64,000 nucleotides of DNA from Saccharothrix sp. NRRL B-16314 (GTDB taxonomy: Bacteria > Actinomycetota > Actinomycetes > Mycobacteriales > Pseudonocardiaceae): NCBI RefSeq assembly GCF_000716595.1, contig NZ_JNXC01000012.1, forward strand, positions 224,839-288,838, given 5' to 3'. Of the stretch, positions 51,661-61,213 are shown in pieces (position 1 is the first letter of the stretch; every line of letters starts with the position of its first letter). The translations under genes and the position numbers were made by a program. The notes below the pieces were generated by a model. That model saw only the letters and a program-made list of their open reading frames with translations. It was not told the DNA's origin and searched no databases.

Positions 51661-51724
51661 CGTGTCGCTAGGTGAACCAACGGCCCGCCCCTGGCTCCGC
51701 ACCGCCCGCCCGTGGGCCCGGCCC

Positions 51725-51743
51725 GACGGACCGGAAGTCCGTC
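51725..51743 (+). promoter_or_regulatory. Hairpin in the cold-shock gene leader
   Basis: GACGGAC (51725-51731) and GTCCGTC (51737-51743) form a 7-bp perfect stem with loop CGGAA, 47 bases before ATG 51790. The following AGAGAG...CCCTCTC can pair as a second helix close to the Shine-Dalgarno GGAG (51780-51783). Structured leaders control many cold-shock mRNAs, so a regulatory role is plausible. Confidence 0.45.
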
Positions 51744-51789
51744 AGAGAGACTGGGGGCCAGTGCCCGCCCTCTCGACCTGGAGCCTTTG

Positions 51790-52737
51790 ATGCCGCAAGG
51801 GACCGTCCGTTGGTTCGACGCCGAACGTGGTTTCGGCTTCCTCGCGCCCGAGGGCGGCTCGCCGGACGTGTTCGTGCACGCCTCCGAGATCGTCGAGGAC
51901 GGCGGCGCGAAAGTGCTCCGCGAGGGTCAGGCCGTCGTGTTCGAGGTCGGCGAGAACGACCGCGGGCCCCAGGCGCTGCGCGTTCGCGTCACCGCCGATG
52001 CGGCCACCGGCAGCGCCGTGGGCCTGCTCGGCACCGTCAACTGGTACGAGCCGGGCAAGGGGTACGGCTTCGCGTCGCCGGACGGCGGCGGCGCCGACAT
52101 CTTCGTGCACAGCTCCGCCATCGTGACCGGCGGCGTGGTCACCGAGGGGCAGCGGGTGGCATTCCTGATCGTCGAAGGCGAGCGCGGCCCGCAGGCCGGG
52201 CACGTGATCCCGCTGGGAGCAGGGGCCGGCTCACCCGCTGCGGCTGGTATCTCGGACGGTGCCGACGGCACGGTGGCCTGGTACGACGAGGACAAGGGAT
52301 TCGGCTTCATCAACCCCGACTCCGGCGCCGGGGACATCTTCGTTCACGCCCAGGCTCTGGCCGAGGGGCTGACGTGGCTCGCGGAGGGCGACCGCGTCGC
52401 CTACGAGGTGGCTCGTGGAGACAAGGGCCCGCAGGCCCGCGACGTGCACCTGGTCCGGAGCGCCGAGCCCCAGACGGCGCCGCAGCGGTCGGCACCTGCC
52501 GCGGCCGCGGGGCCGGCCGCGCGGGACGTGCCCGTACGAGGCGGCGAGGGCGTCGTCGCGCGCTACGACGGCGACCGCGGCTTCGGCTTCATCACCCCGG
52601 ACGCAGGCGGCGACGATCTCTTCGCCCACGTGTCCGTGATCATGGGGTCGGAGCCGCTGCAGAAGGGTGACCGGGTCCGGTACGCGGTGCGTCAGAGCGA
52701 CCGGGGCCCGCAGGCCGACCGCATCGAACGCCTCTGA
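51790..52737 (+). CDS. Protein of four tandem cold-shock domains
   Basis: 315 residues built from four CspA-like OB folds. Their starts are [20 protein letters not shown] (near residue 4), [20 protein letters not shown] (about 82), [20 protein letters not shown] (about 159) and [20 protein letters not shown] (about 257). Each has the RNP1-like K/R-G-F/Y-G-F and an RNP2-like D-V/I/L-F-V/A-H motif, then a x-G-D/Q-R-V...RGPQA end. A linker rich in Ala and Pro precedes the last domain. Cold-shock domains bind single-stranded RNA or DNA. Most bacterial Csp proteins have one domain. ATG 51790 follows GGAG with 6-base spacing. Confidence 0.92.
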
Positions 52738-52965: not shown

Positions 52966-53808
52966 TTAGACCTGGTCGCAGAGCTCGATCTTTATGAGCC
53001 GGCGGACGTTGATCACGGTGCAGGCCAGCGTGAGTAGCGCCGGCGTGGTGCGTTCGCTCCGGTCGTAGCGCAGCCCGAGGCGTTCGAACCGCAGCAGCCA
53101 GGAGATGGTGCGTTCGACGACCCAGCGGACCCGGCCGAGGCGGGACTTGCCCTCAATCCCGCGCCTGGCGATACGGACCTTGATACCGCGGCGGGTCGGG
53201 TAGCGGCGGCAGCGGCGGTAGTCGTAGCCCTTGTCGGCGTGCAACTTGTCCGGTCGGCATCGTGGCCGGCCCGCCCGGCCGTGGTGGCCACGCACGGTCG
53301 GGTTCGTGTCCAGCAGCGGCTCGAACAGCATGCTGTCGTGGGTGTTTGCCGCCGACAACATGATGTGCAGCGGTAGCCCGTTCGCGTCCCACAGAACGTG
53401 GTACTTGGAGCCGGCTTTACCCCGGTCAGTGGGGCTGCGGCCGGTCAGCTCGCCCCCCTTTTCGACCGCACCGACACCGCGTCGATGCAGCCTCTGGTCC
53501 AGTCGAGCTCGTCGATGTTGGACAGCTCGTCGAGCACGAGCTGGTGCAGCCGGTCCCACACACCAGCGTCCTGCCACTCACGTAACCGCCGCCACGCGGT
53601 GTGCCCGGAACCGCATCCGAGCTGCTCGGGTAGGTCTCGCCAGCGGCAGCCGGTGTCGAGCAGGAACAAGATCCCCTCTAGCGCGGCACGGTCATCGATC
53701 CGGGGCCGCCCACCCGGACCGCGCGGCGCTGGTCGGAACGGGGATCAGGGGTTCGATCAGCTCCCAGAGCCGGTCTTCGACCCGCCGCTGCTGCGTCGTC
53801 TTCGCCAT
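52966..53808 (-). pseudogene. IS5-family transposase, needs frameshifts (probably partly broken)
   Basis: Reading from ATG 53808: MAKTTQQRRVEDRLWELIEP in one frame; then GPGGRPRIDDRAALEGILFL and RDLPEQLGCGSGHTAWRRLR in a second; then GGELTGRSPTDRGKAGSKYH to IELCDQV and TAA at 52966 in a third. The second shift is a -1 slip at AAAAGGGGGG (53453-53462), a known programmed-frameshift type in two-ORF IS5-family elements. The first shift (+1, near 53725) lacks such a signal and looks like a mutation. The DDE domain is otherwise intact (CIDAVSV, DKGYDYRR, VERTISWLLRF). Confidence 0.8.
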
Positions 53809-53879
53809 GACTGCCCACGATCGACGACCAGGACCGGCAGGTTACGCAGTGCCACACCCTGAAGTTCTGAGACCAGGTC
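52969..53879. mobile_element. 911-bp IS5-family insertion sequence with 3-bp target duplication
   Basis: Left end GACCTGGTCGCAGAGCT (52969-52985) and right end, read on the minus strand, GACCTGGTCTCAGAACT (53879-53863) are inverted repeats with two mismatches in 17. TTA flanks both sides (52966-52968 and 53880-53882), matching the T-N-A duplication of the IS1031-like subgroup. The transposase stop codon TAA is completed by the flanking TTA on the complementary strand. Confidence 0.88.
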
Positions 53880-53882
53880 TTA

Positions 53883-54116
53883 GGTGATGTCGTTGGCGCA
53901 CAAGGAACTACGCCCACCGGACGCCGGTGCGCGACCGTCACGTTCCGGTGCTCCGCGCACCGTCATGACGCTGTGTGACACCACCCACTTGGCGGCACGT
54001 TCACCGACCGACCACGTGAATGGCGGGTAAAGTCGCACGTCGGCGGTTTCGTGGCTGCGACCGCCGAGGCTGCTTGGCCGGTCCCCCACCGGGTGCGGAG
54101 CAGCGATCCGACCCTC
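53883..54116. other. Region upstream of the Pls/PosA gene
   Basis: About 230 bases between the IS and the leader ORF. A TAAAGT (54028-54033) preceded by GTGAATGGCGGG might be a -10 region. There is no recognised gene. The IS end lies about 280 bases upstream of the synthetase start, so insertion may have affected its promoter. Confidence 0.35.
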
Positions 54117-54129
54117 GGAGGACTACACA

Positions 54130-54162
54130 GTGCGTTCGCGTCCCACCGGTGCCCGCCGGTGA
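54130..54162 (+). CDS. 10-residue leader peptide coupled to the synthetase
   Basis: GGAGG (54117-54121) lies 8 bases before GTG 54130, which opens an ORF reading VRSRPTGARR with TGA at 54160-54162. The stop overlaps the synthetase GTG (54159) by 4 bases (GTGA). The synthetase has no Shine-Dalgarno of its own, so its translation probably depends on this arginine-rich mini-ORF. Confidence 0.6.
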   Translation: MRSRPTGARR

Positions 54163-57100
54163 CCATCGCCCCCGACACCGCCTTCCCCGCCCTGATCGGC
54201 ACGCCGGCGCTGTTCCGCGCCGAGGCCGCCGCGCCCGAGCGCACCCTGCTCGACGTCCTGGCCGACACGGCCCGCCGGCACCCCCACTCCCCCGCGCTGG
54301 ACGACGGCGCCACGTCCCTGACCTACCGCGAACTCCTCGACGAGGTCGACGCGCGGAGCCGGGTGCTGACGGCGTCCGGCGTGGGTGTCGGCGACCGGGT
54401 CGGCGTCCGCGTCCCGTCGGGCACGGTCGACCTGTACCTCGCGGTGCTGTCCGTCCTCGCGGCCGGTGCGGCGTACGTGCCGGTGGACGCCGACGATCCC
54501 GACGAGCGCGCCGAACTGGTGTTCACCGAAGCGGACGTGTGCGCCGTGGTCGGCGAGACGCTCGACCTTCGCGGCACGCCGATGGGCCTGCTCGACACTC
54601 CCGGCCCGGACGACGACGCGTGGATCATCTTCACGTCCGGTTCGACCGGCAAGCCCAAGGGTGTCGCGGTCTCGCACCGGTCCGCCGCCGCGTTCGTGGA
54701 CGCCGAGGCGCGGCTGTTCCTGCCGGACGACCCGATCGGCCCGGACGACCGCGTGCTCGCGGGCCTGTCCGTCGCGTTCGACGCCTCGTGCGAGGAGATG
54801 TGGCTGGCCTGGCGCAACGGCGCGTGCCTGGTACCCGCGCCGCGGGCGTTGGTGCGGACCGGTTTCGACCTCGGGCCGTGGCTGGTCGAGCGTGAGGTGA
54901 CGGTGGTGTCCACGGTGCCGACGCTGGCCGCGCTGTGGCCGGTGGACGCGCTGGACGACGTTCGGCTGCTGATCTTCGGCGGTGAGGCGTGCCCGCCCGA
55001 GCTGGCCGAGCGGCTGGCCGTCGACGGCCGCGAGGTGTGGAACACCTACGGCCCGACCGAGGCCACCGTGGTGGCGTGCGCGGCACGGCTGACCGGTGAC
55101 GGTCCCGTGCGCATCGGCCTGCCGCTGGACGGCTGGGAGCTGGCCGTGGTCGACGCCGCGGGCGCGCCCGTGCCGATGGGCGGTTCCGGTGAGCTGGTGA
55201 TCGGCGGCGTCGGCCTGGCCCGCTACCTCGACCCGGCCAAGGACGCGGAGAAGTTCGCGCCGATGCCCGGCTTGGCCTCGTACGGACCGGGGTGGGACCG
55301 CGCCTACCGCAGCGGCGACCTGGTCCGCGCCGAACCCGAGGGCCTGCTGTTCCTTGGCCGCGCGGACGAGCAGGTGAAGCTGGGCGGACGGCGGATCGAG
55401 CTGGGCGAGGTGGACGCGGCGTTGCAGGCGCTGCCCACCGTCGCCGGGGCCGCCGCGGCCGTGCGCACCACCAAGGGCGGCAACCAGGTCCTCGTGGGGT
55501 ACGTGGTGGCCGCGCAGGACTCCGATCAACCGGCGGACTTCGACCACGCGGACGCGTTGGCCCGGCTGCGGACCGCACTGCCCGCCGCCCTCGTGCCGCT
55601 GCTCGCCGTGGTGGACACGCTGCCCACCCGCACGTCCGGCAAGGTGGACCGGGCGGCGCTCCCGTGGCCGCTGCCGTCGCTGGACGTCGGAGTGCCCGAG
55701 GACGCGCTCACCGGCACCGAGGCGTGGCTGGCCGAGCAGTGGACGGAGCTGTTGGGCGCGCGCATCACCAGTCCCGACGCGGACTTCTTCGCCCACGGCG
55801 GCGGCAGCCTCGCCGCGGCGCAGCTCGTCTCCACGATCCGGACCCGCCACTCCGGCGGTTCGGTCAACGACATCTACCAGCACCCGACGCTGCGGCAGCT
55901 GGCCGCGCGGCTGGACGAGCTGAGCGGCCACCGCGCCGCCACCCGCGAGGTCGTGCCGACGCCCCGGCGGACCGGCGTGATCCAGTCCTTGCTGCTGGTC
56001 CCGCTCATGAGCCTGGTCGGGCTGCGCTGGTCGGTCGCGCTGGCGGCGGTGGGCAACGTCGTCGGCTTCACCACTCCGGTCTCGTGGTGGTGGATCGCCG
56101 CCGGGTGGCTCGTGTTCGTCAGCCCGCCCGGCAAGGTGGCCATCGCGGCGGGTGGCGCGCGGCTGCTGCTGCGCGGTCTGCGTCCCGGCACGTACCCGCG
56201 CGGCGGCGGCGTGCACCTGCGGCTGTGGACCGCCGAACGGCTGGCCGAGTTCAGCGGCGCGACGAACCTCGCCGGGTCGTGGCTCACGCACTACGCCCGT
56301 GCCCTGGGCGCGAAGATCGCCCCGGACGTCGACCTGCACTCCGCGCCACCGGTGACCGGCATGCTCAAGCTCGGCAAGGGCAGCGCGATCGAGCCCGAGG
56401 TGGACCTGTCCGGCCACTGGGTGGACGGCGACCGGCTGCACGTCGGGCGCATCCGGGTCGGCGCGGGCGCGGTGGTCGGTGCGCGCAGCACCCTGTTCCC
56501 CGGTGCCCGGGTCGCCAAGCGGGCCGAGGTGGCGCCCGGTTCGGGGGTGACCGGCTCGGTCCCGACGGGGCAGCGGTGGGCCGGTGTGCCCGCGACGCGC
56601 GACGGCAAGGCAGGCCGTCCCGGCCCGCGCCCGCCGCGGTCGTCGTGGTGGAAGCTGGTCTACGCGGTGACGACGTCCGCGCTGGGGCTGCTTCCGGTGG
56701 CGGCGGCCGTTCCCGCGGTGCTGCTCGTCGTGCGCCGGCCGTTGACGCTCGGGTCGGCGCTGTCTGCCGTGCCGTTGGCGACGGTGGCGTGGCTGGGCGC
56801 GTACGCGCTGCTGGTCCTCGTGTCCGTGCGGCTGCTCGGCATCGGGCTGCGGGCCGGCACGTACCCGGTGCACAGCCGGATCGCCTGGCAGGCGTGGACC
56901 ACCGAACGGCTGATGAACATGGCGCGGGTCGCGCTGTTCCCCTTGTACGCGAGCCTGTTCACGCCGGTGTGGCTGCGTGCGCTGGGGATGCGGGTCGGCC
57001 GCCGGGTCGAGGCGTCGACCGTGCTCGCGCTGCCGAAGATGACCACGATCGGCGACGGCGCGTTCCTCGCCGACGACACCATGGTCGCGTCCTACGAGCT

Positions 57101-57995
57101 GGGCGGCGGCTGGCTCCGCATCGCCGCCGCGCGGGTCGGCAAGCGGGCGTTCCTGGGCAACTCGGGGATGACCGCGCCGGGCCGCTCGGTGCCGAACCGC
57201 GGGCTGGTGGGCGTGCTGTCGGCGACGCCGAAGCGGGCCAAGGCGGGCAGCTCGTACCTGGGCATGCCGCCGATGAAGCTGCCGCGCGCGGCCGAGCAGG
57301 GTGACCAGAGCCGGACGTTCGACCCGCCGCGGCGGCTGGTCGTGGCCCGCGCGCTGGTCGAGCTGTGCCGGGTCGTGCCGGTGATGTGCCACGTCGCGCT
57401 GGTCGTGGGTGTCGTGTTCGCGCTGCGAGCCGTGATGTCCCTGTGGGCGTGGCCGCTGCTGGCCGGGCTGGTGCTGCTCGCCGCGGGGGTGGCGGCGTGC
57501 GCGGTGGCGGCGGTGGCGAAGTGGCTGCTGGTCGGTCGGTTCCGGGCGCGGGAGTACCCGTTGTGGAGCGGGTTCGTCTGGCGCAACGAGCTGGCGGACA
57601 CGTTCGTGGAGGTGCTGGCGGTGCCGTGGCTGGTCGGCTCGGCGGGCGGGTCGCCGGTGATGGCGCTGTGGCTGCGGTCGCTGGGCGCGCGGATCGGGCG
57701 CGGCACGTGGGTCGAGTCGTACTGGTTCCCGGAGTCGGACCTGGTGCGGTTGGGCGACGGCGCGACCGTGAACCGGGGGTGCGTGGTGCAGACCCACCTC
57801 TTCCATGATCGGATCCTGCGCATGGACCAGGTGGAGTTGGCGGACGGGGCCACGCTCGGCCCGCACGGGATCGTGCTGCCCGGCGCGACGGTCGGCGCGC
57901 ACGCGACGGTCGGCCCGGCGTCGTTGGTGATGCGCGGCGAGCACGTGCCGGCGGGCACGCGGTGGCTGGGCAACCCGATCTCCGCCTGGCGATGA
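54159..57995 (+). CDS. Pls/PosA-family NRPS-like poly-amino-acid synthetase
   Basis: 1278 residues. The adenylation domain (about 1-500) includes WIIFTSGSTGKPKGVAVSHR, SVAFDASCEEMWLAWRNGAC, NTYGPTEATV and LFLGRADEQVKLGGRRIELG. The thiolation domain carries its serine in FFAHGGGSLAAAQL (about 549). The C-terminal half has about six membrane segments alternating with three related soluble modules, marked RPGTYPRGGGVHLRLWTAER, RAGTYPVHSRIAWQAWTTER and RAREYPLWSGFVWRNELADT, with hexapeptide-like repeats. This is the layout of epsilon-poly-lysine synthetase (Pls) and relatives, which polymerise one amino acid at the membrane. ATGA couples it to the peptidase. Confidence 0.9.
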   Translation: MTIAPDTAFPALIGTPALFRAEAAAPERTLLDVLADTARRHPHSPALDDGATSLTYRELLDEVDARSRVLTASGVGVGDRVGVRVPSGTVDLYLAVLSVLAAGAAYVPVDADDPDERAELVFTEADVCAVVGETLDLRGTPMGLLDTPGPDDDAWIIFTSGSTGKPKGVAVSHRSAAAFVDAEARLFLPDDPIGPDDRVLAGLSVAFDASCEEMWLAWRNGACLVPAPRALVRTGFDLGPWLVEREVTVVSTVPTLAALWPVDALDDVRLLIFGGEACPPELAERLAVDGREVWNTYGPTEATVVACAARLTGDGPVRIGLPLDGWELAVVDAAGAPVPMGGSGELVIGGVGLARYLDPAKDAEKFAPMPGLASYGPGWDRAYRSGDLVRAEPEGLLFLGRADEQVKLGGRRIELGEVDAALQALPTVAGAAAAVRTTKGGNQVLVGYVVAAQDSDQPADFDHADALARLRTALPAALVPLLAVVDTLPTRTSGKVDRAALPWPLPSLDVGVPEDALTGTEAWLAEQWTELLGARITSPDADFFAHGGGSLAAAQLVSTIRTRHSGGSVNDIYQHPTLRQLAARLDELSGHRAATREVVPTPRRTGVIQSLLLVPLMSLVGLRWSVALAAVGNVVGFTTPVSWWWIAAGWLVFVSPPGKVAIAAGGARLLLRGLRPGTYPRGGGVHLRLWTAERLAEFSGATNLAGSWLTHYARALGAKIAPDVDLHSAPPVTGMLKLGKGSAIEPEVDLSGHWVDGDRLHVGRIRVGAGAVVGARSTLFPGARVAKRAEVAPGSGVTGSVPTGQRWAGVPATRDGKAGRPGPRPPRSSWWKLVYAVTTSALGLLPVAAAVPAVLLVVRRPLTLGSALSAVPLATVAWLGAYALLVLVSVRLLGIGLRAGTYPVHSRIAWQAWTTERLMNMARVALFPLYASLFTPVWLRALGMRVGRRVEASTVLALPKMTTIGDGAFLADDTMVASYELGGGWLRIAAARVGKRAFLGNSGMTAPGRSVPNRGLVGVLSATPKRAKAGSSYLGMPPMKLPRAAEQGDQSRTFDPPRRLVVARALVELCRVVPVMCHVALVVGVVFALRAVMSLWAWPLLAGLVLLAAGVAACAVAAVAKWLLVGRFRAREYPLWSGFVWRNELADTFVEVLAVPWLVGSAGGSPVMALWLRSLGARIGRGTWVESYWFPESDLVRLGDGATVNRGCVVQTHLFHDRILRMDQVELADGATLGPHGIVLPGATVGAHATVGPASLVMRGEHVPAGTRWLGNPISAWR

Positions 57996-59260
57996 CCGGG
58001 TACCTCCCCGATCACGGTGACAGCGGCTACCGGGTCGCGCACTACGACCTCGACCTGGACTACAAGCCGCACACCGGGCGGCTGGGCGGGCGGGCGACGC
58101 TGTCCGCCGTCACGGCGGCGCCGCTGAGCCGGGTCGTGCTGGACTTCGGCGCGCTGCCCGTGAGCCGGGTGCTGGTGGACGGCCGGCCCGCCCGCCACGC
58201 GCACGGCGGCGGCAAGCTGCGGGTCCGCCCGACGCGCCCGGTGGACGGGCCGTTCACCGTCGAGGTCCGGTACTCGGGTGTCGCACGCCCGATCCGGACC
58301 CGGCACTGGGGTGAGCTGGGGTGGGACCAGCTCACCGACGGCGCGCTGGTGGCGAGCCAGCCGGTCGGCGCGTCGTCCTGGTTCCCGTGCAACGACCTGG
58401 TGCGGGACAAGGCGACCTACCGGATCTCGGTCACCGCCCCGTCGCCGTACACGGTGCTGGCCAACGGCGTGCAGGTCGAGCGGCGCAGCGGGGGCAGCAG
58501 CACGACGTGGGTCTACGAGCAGGCCGAGCCGATGGCGACGTACCTGGCGTCCGTGCAGGTCGGGCAGTACGTGCGGCTGCCGCTGGGCGACGGCCAGGAC
58601 GTGGCCGCGCCCGCCCGGCTGCTGCGGGCCGTCCGGCACGACTTCGCCCGGCAGCCGCAGATGATGGGCGTGTTCGAGGAGCTGTTCGGCCCCTACCCGT
58701 TCCGCGCCTACCAGGTCGTGGTGACCGACGACGAGCTGGAAGTGCCGGTCGAGGCGCAGGGCATGTCGGTGTTCGGCGCCAACCACGTCGACGGGCAGCG
58801 CGGGCACGAACGGCTGGTCGCGCACGAGCTGGCGCACCAGTGGTTCGGCAACAGCGTCGGCCTGGCCGACTGGCGGGACATCTGGCTCAACGAGGGTTTC
58901 GCCTGCTACGCCGAGTGGCTGTGGTCGGAACGCTCCGGCGGCCCCACCGCCGCCGTCCTCGCCGACCGCGCCCGCGCCCGGCTGGCCCGCGCACCGCAGG
59001 ACCTCCGGATCGGCGACCCCGGGGTGGCGAACCTGTTCGACGACCGGGTCTACAAGCGCGGCGCGCTCACGTTGCACGGCCTGCGGACCCGCCAAGGCGA
59101 TCCCGACTTCTTCGCCACCCTCCGCGAGTGGACGGACTCCTATCGTCACCGCACGGCGACGACCGGTGATTTCATGGCGTTGGCCCAACGCCACACCGCC
59201 TACCCGCTGGGCCTGTTCTTCCGCTCCTGGCTGGAGGATGCCCGACTCCCGGCGCTGTGA
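57992..59260 (+). CDS. M1-family zinc metallopeptidase coupled to the synthetase
   Basis: 422 residues. The zinc motif is HELAHQWFGN (about 278) with the third ligand in DIWLNEGFACYAEWLW. The N-terminal beta-saddle is present (YDLDLDYKPHTGRLGGRATL). The usual G-x-M-E-N exopeptidase loop reads EAQGMSVFG. No signal peptide is seen. M1-type aminopeptidases that degrade epsilon-poly-lysine (Pld enzymes) are known near pls in Streptomyces albulus. The ATGA overlap here suggests the same pairing, for polymer trimming or self-protection. Confidence 0.9.
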   Translation: MTGYLPDHGDSGYRVAHYDLDLDYKPHTGRLGGRATLSAVTAAPLSRVVLDFGALPVSRVLVDGRPARHAHGGGKLRVRPTRPVDGPFTVEVRYSGVARPIRTRHWGELGWDQLTDGALVASQPVGASSWFPCNDLVRDKATYRISVTAPSPYTVLANGVQVERRSGGSSTTWVYEQAEPMATYLASVQVGQYVRLPLGDGQDVAAPARLLRAVRHDFARQPQMMGVFEELFGPYPFRAYQVVVTDDELEVPVEAQGMSVFGANHVDGQRGHERLVAHELAHQWFGNSVGLADWRDIWLNEGFACYAEWLWSERSGGPTAAVLADRARARLARAPQDLRIGDPGVANLFDDRVYKRGALTLHGLRTRQGDPDFFATLREWTDSYRHRTATTGDFMALAQRHTAYPLGLFFRSWLEDARLPAL

Positions 59261-59304
59261 TCCACGGCACGCAGCGCGCACCCCTCGGTGTCCTCATACC
59301 AGGC

Positions 59305-59955
59305 ATGACGGAAGCTCCCACGGATGCGGTCGGGGTGTTGGCCTTGCCCGACGCCCCCGACACCGGTCCGCCCCCGAAACCGGACCCGCCCCCGGACTCC
59401 GACGCCGGATTGTGGCACACGATCGCGGGCGACGGACCGGAGGCGCACGCCGCCTTCACCGAGTTGTTCCAGCGGCACGCCGAGGCGGTGTGGAACTACG
59501 CCTACCGGCTCACGGCGTCGTGGGCGCAGGCCGACGACCTGCTGTCGACCGCGTTCCTCAACGCCTGGCGCACCAGGGGCCGGGCCGTGCTGACGCGGGA
59601 CTCCGCGCGCCCGTGGCTGTTCACCGTCACGGCCCGCCTGGCCCGTGACGAGCGACGTGCCCGCGCACGCCTGACGGCGTTGCTCCAGCGGTTGTCCCGC
59701 ACGACCGCCGAACGCGATCACGCCGACGCGGTCGTGGAGGGTGACTTCGCCGAACGCCGCCTGCGCCGCGTGGTCAGGGCCGTCGACCGCCTGCCCCGCG
59801 CCGAGCGCGAGGTCGTCCGGCTGTGCCTGCTCGGCGAGGTGTCCACGGCCGACGCGGCCCGGCTGCTCGGCATCGCCGAGGCCAGCGTCCGCTCCCGCAC
59901 GTCCCGCGCCCGTGCCCGGCTCCGCGCGCTGCTCGAGGAGGACTCCGATGACTGA
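59305..59955 (+). CDS. ECF-type RNA polymerase sigma factor
   Basis: 216 residues. Region 2 is FTELFQRHAEAVWNYAYRLT, ASWAQADDLLSTAFLNAWRT, and region 4 is LPRAEREVVRLCLLGEVSTA, DAARLLGIAEASVRSRTSRA, ending RARLRALLEEDSDD. A proline-rich N-terminal extension (PDAPDTGPPPKPDPPPDSDA) precedes it. ATG 59305 is used; GTG 59257 is possible. It is coupled to the next gene, a predicted membrane-anchored partner. Whether it controls the synthetase operon just upstream is unknown. Confidence 0.9.
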   Translation: MTEAPTDAVGVLALPDAPDTGPPPKPDPPPDSDAGLWHTIAGDGPEAHAAFTELFQRHAEAVWNYAYRLTASWAQADDLLSTAFLNAWRTRGRAVLTRDSARPWLFTVTARLARDERRARARLTALLQRLSRTTAERDHADAVVEGDFAERRLRRVVRAVDRLPRAEREVVRLCLLGEVSTADAARLLGIAEASVRSRTSRARARLRALLEEDSDD

Positions 59956-61213
59956 CCTGGACCTGCCCCCGGACAGCCCGCTGCCCGACGGCGTGCGTTC
60001 CGCCGCGCTCACCCGCCTGCGGGCGGGGCTGGACGCGCCTCCCCCCCGCCACGTGCCCCTCAAGATCGCCGCCATCGCCGTCGCCGTGGTCACCGCGACG
60101 GGGCTGGCCGTGCAGCTCACCGACCGCAGGGACCCCACCGCGACGACCCCTTCGACGTCGGCGGAGATCCCCGAGCTGCGCCACCACGACGCGGCGGTCT
60201 TCTACGACCTGCGCCAGGGTTCGGCACCGGACGGCGCGGCGCGGCGCTGCCACGCGCAGTCGACCGGCCTGCCTCCGGCCGACCGGTGGACCCCGATCGC
60301 CACGGCGTCCCGGCACCGGGTGGACCTGATGGCGTTCGAGACCGCCGCGGGGATCGTGTTCTGCGAGAACACCCCCATGTCGGTCACCGTGTCGTCGCCG
60401 TGGACCGACCCCGGCGCCCTCACCGTCGCGTTCAGCACGGCGACCGGGTCGATGGCGGGGTTCACCGGTTCCGACGCCCGGTCGTTCACCCTCGCCGCAC
60501 GCGCGGAGGAGGACGAACGCGCCATCGTCGCCCGATCGGGCCGCCTGTTCCTGATGCCCGACGGCTTCGTCGCCGACGGTGTCGTCGCCCAGCCCGAGGT
60601 GGCCACCTCGACCGAACTCGTCCAGGAGTTCGAGCTGACCACGCCACCTCCGACCGCGACCGCGGTCGACCGGCCGGTGACCCCCGAGGACCGCGGCAGC
60701 GCCGAAGGTCGTCGGCTCGGCGAGTGCCTGGCCGACCAGCCGCAGCCGGTCGCGGACCCCTCCGCGTGGCGGGCCGGGCAGGCGATCGCCCTGACCGCGA
60801 CCGAGTCCGTGCAGCTGGGCCACTACCAGGACTTGCTGCTGCTGTGCCGTGAGGACCGGACCGTCGCGGTGTACGACTTCCGGCGGCCCGACGCCGCGGA
60901 GTGGGGCAGGGTGCTCTTCACCGGTGCGACGGTTCGTGGCGTGCTGATGCACTACGACTTCGTCCCGACCACCCGGGACGGCACGACTTTCGCGACGTCC
61001 GGCACGCAGGCCGTGATCGCCGAGGTCACCGATCCGCGGGTCGCGACCGTGACCCTGGTCGGCCCCGGCCGCCCCGACGTCACCGCCGAACCCGTGGCCG
61101 GCTCAGTGGTCCTGAGGGACCTCGCCTCGAACGGCGTGGGCCCGACGCCGGTGCGGATCATCGTCCGGGACGCCTCCGGCACCGTGCTGGAGGAGTTCAC
61201 CCACGAGTTCTGA
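59948..61213 (+). CDS. Membrane-anchored partner of the sigma factor (anti-sigma-like)
   Basis: 421 residues. A short cytoplasmic N-terminus (MTDLDLPPDSPLPDGVRSAA) is followed by one membrane segment (LKIAAIAVAVVTATGLAVQL, about residues 38-57) and a large extracytoplasmic domain without a family I recognise. That domain contains RCHAQSTG, FCENTPMS, LGECLADQ and LLLCREDR, so four cysteines could form disulphides. Topology and an 8-base overlap with the sigma gene suggest it controls the sigma factor, but no zinc-binding HxxxCxxC motif is seen. Confidence 0.75.
   Translation: MTDLDLPPDSPLPDGVRSAALTRLRAGLDAPPPRHVPLKIAAIAVAVVTATGLAVQLTDRRDPTATTPSTSAEIPELRHHDAAVFYDLRQGSAPDGAARRCHAQSTGLPPADRWTPIATASRHRVDLMAFETAAGIVFCENTPMSVTVSSPWTDPGALTVAFSTATGSMAGFTGSDARSFTLAARAEEDERAIVARSGRLFLMPDGFVADGVVAQPEVATSTELVQEFELTTPPPTATAVDRPVTPEDRGSAEGRRLGECLADQPQPVADPSAWRAGQAIALTATESVQLGHYQDLLLLCREDRTVAVYDFRRPDAAEWGRVLFTGATVRGVLMHYDFVPTTRDGTTFATSGTQAVIAEVTDPRVATVTLVGPGRPDVTAEPVAGSVVLRDLASNGVGPTPVRIIVRDASGTVLEEFTHEF

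Follow-up and report, generated by a model that had tools for sequence, protein, structure and literature searches.

We analyzed a 64,000-nucleotide stretch of Saccharothrix sp. NRRL B-16314 DNA (the window) and found three chained frames that we read, with reasonable confidence, as an epsilon-poly-L-lysine operon in which reinitiation after a short leader would feed the synthetase, and an M1 peptidase encoded behind it would cut the polymer, probably inside the cell. The enzymes of the operon are not new, a Pls/PosA synthetase with an M1 peptidase being a known gene pair. Two details look new: a conserved leader at pls and an M1 protein without a Tat-like signal. Epsilon-poly-lysine is a natural antimicrobial and a food preservative, and a leader that delivers ribosomes to its synthetase would be simple to test and to use. 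Excerpts of PMC8117764 describe the pls promoter region as critical for epsilon-poly-lysine production.

Operon layout and predicted product

All three frames lie on the + strand. The initial annotation had described them as joined by 4-base overlaps, with a Shine-Dalgarno-led leader in front and an M1 peptidase gene chained behind, and its coordinates hold (starts at 54130, 54159, and 57992). The leader (54130..54162, GTG 54130 to TGA 54162) has 10 codons (VRSRPTGARR*), and its GGAGGA Shine-Dalgarno site is at 54117..54122, with a spacing of 8 nt from GGAGG to the GTG. The synthetase (54159..57995, GTG to TGA) spans 1278 residues with A, T, and NRPS terminal domains. The M1 metallopeptidase (57992..59260, ATG to TGA) is pldII-like. 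The leader and synthetase share GTGA (54159-54162), and the synthetase and M1 frames share ATGA (57992-57995). A 4-bp overlap of pls and peptidase genes is already in print for S. albulus, where pls and pldII form an operon with such an overlap (excerpts of PMC4361855).

The synthetase scores 756.9 bits against TIGR02353, the NCBIfam model of the Pls/PosA family, above the cut-off of 423.1, which bears out the earlier assignment to A-T-membrane synthetases of this type. PF00501 (A domain) and PF00550 (T domain) were also matched, and the phosphopantetheine serine motif GGGSL begins at residue 547. By sequence, the best solved match is 7wew, the A domain of epsilon-poly-L-lysine synthase (E 6.3e-206), with 341 identical residues over 483 aligned. 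We located the adenylation-pocket positions by motif, using PheA numbering. The resulting code, DAETIGTVVK, is the same as that of S. albulus Pls (7wew) at 10 of 10 positions and recurs in 79 of the 80 related loci, the other (L025) having a different residue at the last position. At code position 2, Ala goes with lysine, Met with ornithine, and Phe with diaminopropionate or diaminobutyrate, according to excerpts of PMC10522769; the synthetase has Ala there and Glu at position 3, as in a Lys-type pocket.

Because all 10 pocket residues match those of Pls, the predicted polymer is epsilon-poly-L-lysine. This replaces the earlier view that the polymer was undescribed. The PosA of Acinetobacter baumannii belongs to the same synthetase family, but has the code DMEHNGTVSK, uses ornithine, and is encoded in a single-gene operon (excerpts of PMC10522769). 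S. albulus Pls shares the A-T-membrane architecture, the 10-residue code, and the 4-bp-overlapping peptidase gene. For Corynebacterium variabile Pls, excerpts of PMC8117764 report epsilon-PL as the product, and there, as here, one operon holds the synthetase and a peptidase gene. The membrane-bound synthetase would activate L-lysine, load it onto the T domain, and build the chain through epsilon-amino groups; the M1 enzyme from the next gene would cut the polymer, probably intracellularly.

The family is large: of 7995 scored candidates, 7452 proteins had E values of 1e-100 or below. The synthetase is present in 18 of the 25 genomes of the genus searched (its own included) at 81-100% identity, and the best named matches are in S. 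luteola, S. carnea, and S. algeriensis. We found no report of poly-lysine production in Saccharothrix in the literature searched, which includes excerpts of PMC9973853. A link to defence was rejected, as neither the synthetase nor the M1 protein matched any PADLOC defence model.

A short leader frame at the synthetase start

A leader frame with a GGAGG site and a GTGA overlap is present in all 18 pls-bearing Saccharothrix genomes. It is 33 nt long in 17 of them and 36 nt in one, starts with GTG in 17 and ATG in one, and always ends in GTGA. In Umezawaea tangerina (L007), too, GGAGGA precedes a short frame whose closing GTGA overlaps the synthetase start. The peptide is only loosely conserved, with V/M-R-L-R-x-x-G-A-R-R as its approximate consensus. 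Synonymous codon differences are in mild excess in the leader frame (187/604, versus 106/603 and 77/567 in the shifted frames), counted over 16 distinct leaders and uncorrected for their relatedness. In the window, the synthetase start itself is preceded, 7 nt upstream, by no more than a 4-nt GGTG as a weak Shine-Dalgarno match, and in L005 by none.

We also looked for leaders beyond the genus. Among 80 pls genes, counting that of the window, a strict rule found one at 12, versus 8 of 384 other long genes in the same loci; these rows are related to each other. The rule missed the true leader of L006 and let through doubtful candidates, for instance in L046. In other lineages, a more permissive rule recovered Shine-Dalgarno-led leaders that overlap pls in the same manner but differ in length, including a 4-codon leader in 6 of 6 Lentzea and a 29-codon leader in three Streptomyces loci. 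Single cases came from Actinacidiphila, Streptomyces sp. ISL-1, Actinokineospora, Pseudonocardia, Saccharopolyspora, and Actinoplanes, the weaker of which may be chance. Most Streptomyces pls genes among the 80 loci, as well as those of the six S. albulus-type loci, sit behind a Shine-Dalgarno site of their own, and the leader is therefore dispensable for the Pls family. No description of a leader at pls was found in open-licence PMC papers.

Termination-reinitiation coupling is the simplest and most likely reading of this arrangement. Ribosomes would bind the strong leader site, translate 10 codons, terminate at the UGA, and start again at the synthetase GUG that overlaps it; selection would act on leader translation and not on the peptide made. 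A conserved, Shine-Dalgarno-led short frame with an NTGA overlap, one trait of uORF coupling, is present in 18 of 18 genomes. A review treats short frames that hand the ribosome on to the following gene (excerpts of PMC12548453). A close parallel is uPPE2-ppe2 of M. tuberculosis, where a short frame with a Shine-Dalgarno site also overlaps, by NUGA, a frame lacking one, and where PPE2 expression from reporters depends on this arrangement (excerpts of PMC11260477). The same excerpts report leader fusions alongside reinitiation for ppe2, and frameshifting at the GTGA overlap could similarly yield a leader-synthetase fusion here, instead of or besides reinitiation; we regard this as very unlikely.

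The synthetase frame is open further upstream, from GTG 54051 (1314 aa), and the entry in our collection (P0003) has that same length. Translation of the synthetase might thus begin at GTG 54051 or GTG 54093, both upstream and in frame, making the leader a by-product of that coding sequence. However, in 4 of the 18 Saccharothrix orthologues, no in-frame start codon lies between the equivalent of 54159 and an upstream stop 66-78 nt above, and the stretch carries indels other than multiples of three. An upstream start is therefore extremely improbable.

The 5' region and its predicted RNA structures

Upstream of the leader is a putative -10 box, TAAAGT (54028..54033, + strand), with a presumed promoter function; it reads TAAAGT at 17 of 18 Saccharothrix loci, TAGAGT at the other, and TAAAGT in U. 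tangerina. A consensus scan of 53890-54300 showed no sigma-70-type promoter. By eye, the S. albulus promoter in excerpts of PMC8117764 resembles the 5' region of the albulus-type loci up to the ATG.

Between the -10-like box and the Shine-Dalgarno site are about 90 nt containing a 5'UTR element with two predicted hairpins (54034..54124, + strand). Of the 18 pls-bearing Saccharothrix genomes, 11 have it and seven lack it; U. tangerina has it too. Sequence support for its fold is modest. In the alignment, 95.1% of cells are paired, and both-sided changes occur at 3 of 22 pairs, a count reached by 129 of 500 shuffles. The covariation score is above all 500 shuffles, although related sequences can reach such a score without structure, and the element as it stands in the window folds no better than its shuffled versions (z -0.21).

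A search of 25 Saccharothrix genomes with a model of the element (R1), scoring 150 candidates per genome, gave 11 strong matches, each of them at pls; the next best had E 0.0086. Because the model was built from these same 11 sequences, only the absence of further matches is telling. Across the 80 other loci, strong matches came only from L006 and L007 (next E 0.065). As all strong matches were at pls, a role as a general regulatory RNA was rejected. A known RNA family was likewise rejected, as the search of 53600-54400 against Rfam returned a sole chance miRNA match (E 3.8). In uPPE2-ppe2, by comparison, a B12 riboswitch precedes the short frame (excerpts of PMC11260477).

The leader could instead be an attenuator, in which ribosome stalling on Arg codons or the nascent peptide alters 5' folding and sets pls expression. 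The 16 distinct 33-nt leaders do keep Arg2 (15/16), Arg4 (13/16), Gly7 (16/16), and Arg10 (16/16), and the conserved element lies just upstream of the leader in 11 of the 18 genomes. However, the peptide varies (e.g., VPFRFPGARR, VRPCSFGPIL), the seven genomes without the element still have the leader, and a scan of 53890-54300 showed no terminator-like site on the + strand. Lysine-sensing attenuation in particular was rejected, as Lys codons number zero across the 18 leaders, though lysine is the predicted substrate. We consider attenuation unlikely, and leader conservation favours coupling over it: a leader kept in 18 of 18 genomes while its peptide varies fits coupling better than a sensing peptide.

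We also considered a possible hairpin (CACCGGT/GCCGGTG) over the synthetase GTG (54144..54161, + strand), for which the evidence is weak. Across 18 rows, 88.9% of cells are paired with zero double changes, and in just 2 of 19 sequences do 20 or fewer of 200 shuffles fold as well. The hairpin was dropped as a main claim, since it is mostly no stabler than composition predicts.

Further upstream, 147 bp separate the -10-like box from the end of an IS element (52968-53880), which contains a DDE transposase frame and has inverted repeats of 18 nt (89%). In the genus loci, which extend some 1.5 kb upstream, nothing matches the sequence above about 53960. A 341-residue protein at 51712-52737 has four tandem cold-shock domains (four stretches matching Pfam CSD), where one is usual for bacterial cold-shock proteins, and among the 80 loci we saw only single-domain-like matches to it (L022 and L029).

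The M1 peptidase and its missing signal

The M1 gene lies directly downstream of pls in 79 of the 80 related loci; in L031, the contig ends too early. All 80 M1 proteins, that of the window included, have the HEXXH-X18-E zinc motif. A class-wide search gave 28 TIGR02353 matches in 21 of 118 genomes, and 20 of these made up our class sample: three without a code, two with Phe at position 2, and 15 with the Lys code. M1 adjoins pls in 14 of these 15 Lys-code loci, the exception being L172, whose Lys-code synthetase is on a very long branch and has no M1 gene behind it.

We compared the N-termini of 103 M1 proteins, from the window, 17 genus loci, 79 related loci, and six albulus-type loci; three pairs (L004/L093, L005/L096, and L006/L103) seem to be the same species twice. 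The check was a simple one of motifs and hydropathy only, and some true starts are uncertain. By this check, all six S. albulus-type proteins have a CSRR-type Tat-like signal with a hydrophobic stretch, and the other 97, the window among them, have none. One of these (L027) has the RR, but the hydrophobic stretch behind it is absent. The window M1 has neither an N-terminal extension nor a signal-like stretch. In the class sample, 13 of the 14 M1 proteins adjoining Lys-code pls have no hydrophobic stretch; for the other (L179), hydropathy reaches 1.41 somewhere within an upstream-open frame. Because it has no recognisable signal peptide, the Saccharothrix M1 enzyme is probably cytoplasmic. In a quick tree, rooted at midpoint for drawing only, the albulus type forms one clade (support 100), and the window falls in a 38-row group (support 95).

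In two class-sample loci with the Phe code (L170 and L182), the M1 gene is not adjacent but about 950 nt downstream, and its product has a signal-like N-terminus. Their synthetases fall outside the Lys-code group.

The albulus-type loci (L159-L164) encode Pls proteins that are 57-59% identical to the window synthetase over the full length, and M1 proteins that are 47-49% identical to the window M1. They differ from Saccharothrix in having a pls start behind its own Shine-Dalgarno site instead of a leader, and in the Tat-like signal of their M1 proteins. The pldII gene of S. albulus, like the M1 gene here, is directly behind pls with a 4-bp overlap. Since M1 genes overlap pls by 4 bp in five of the six albulus-type loci (not L164), we infer that PldII is itself an M1-type enzyme. 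PldII is located at the membrane exterior, according to excerpts of PMC9223678, whereas the Saccharothrix M1 protein shows no signal peptide. A self-protection role has been postulated for PldII (excerpts of PMC8117764), and unsignalled M1 proteins outside the S. albulus type raise the question of whether that role holds family-wide. One doubtful but conceivable extension is that the broad non-albulus Pls clade represents a second poly-lysine system, in which a polymer made at the membrane would be trimmed or cleared in the cytoplasm by the unsignalled M1, with the Saccharothrix synthetase gated by the leader and a 5'UTR RNA element sensing cell state.

Behind the M1 gene, an ECF sigma factor frame and a second frame without a Pfam match, joined by an ATGA overlap, occupy 59284-61213, between M1 and pfkB-surE. 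The pair has no tblastn match in the 80 loci (E 1e-5), and in L004 and L005, pfkB and surE lie directly behind M1.
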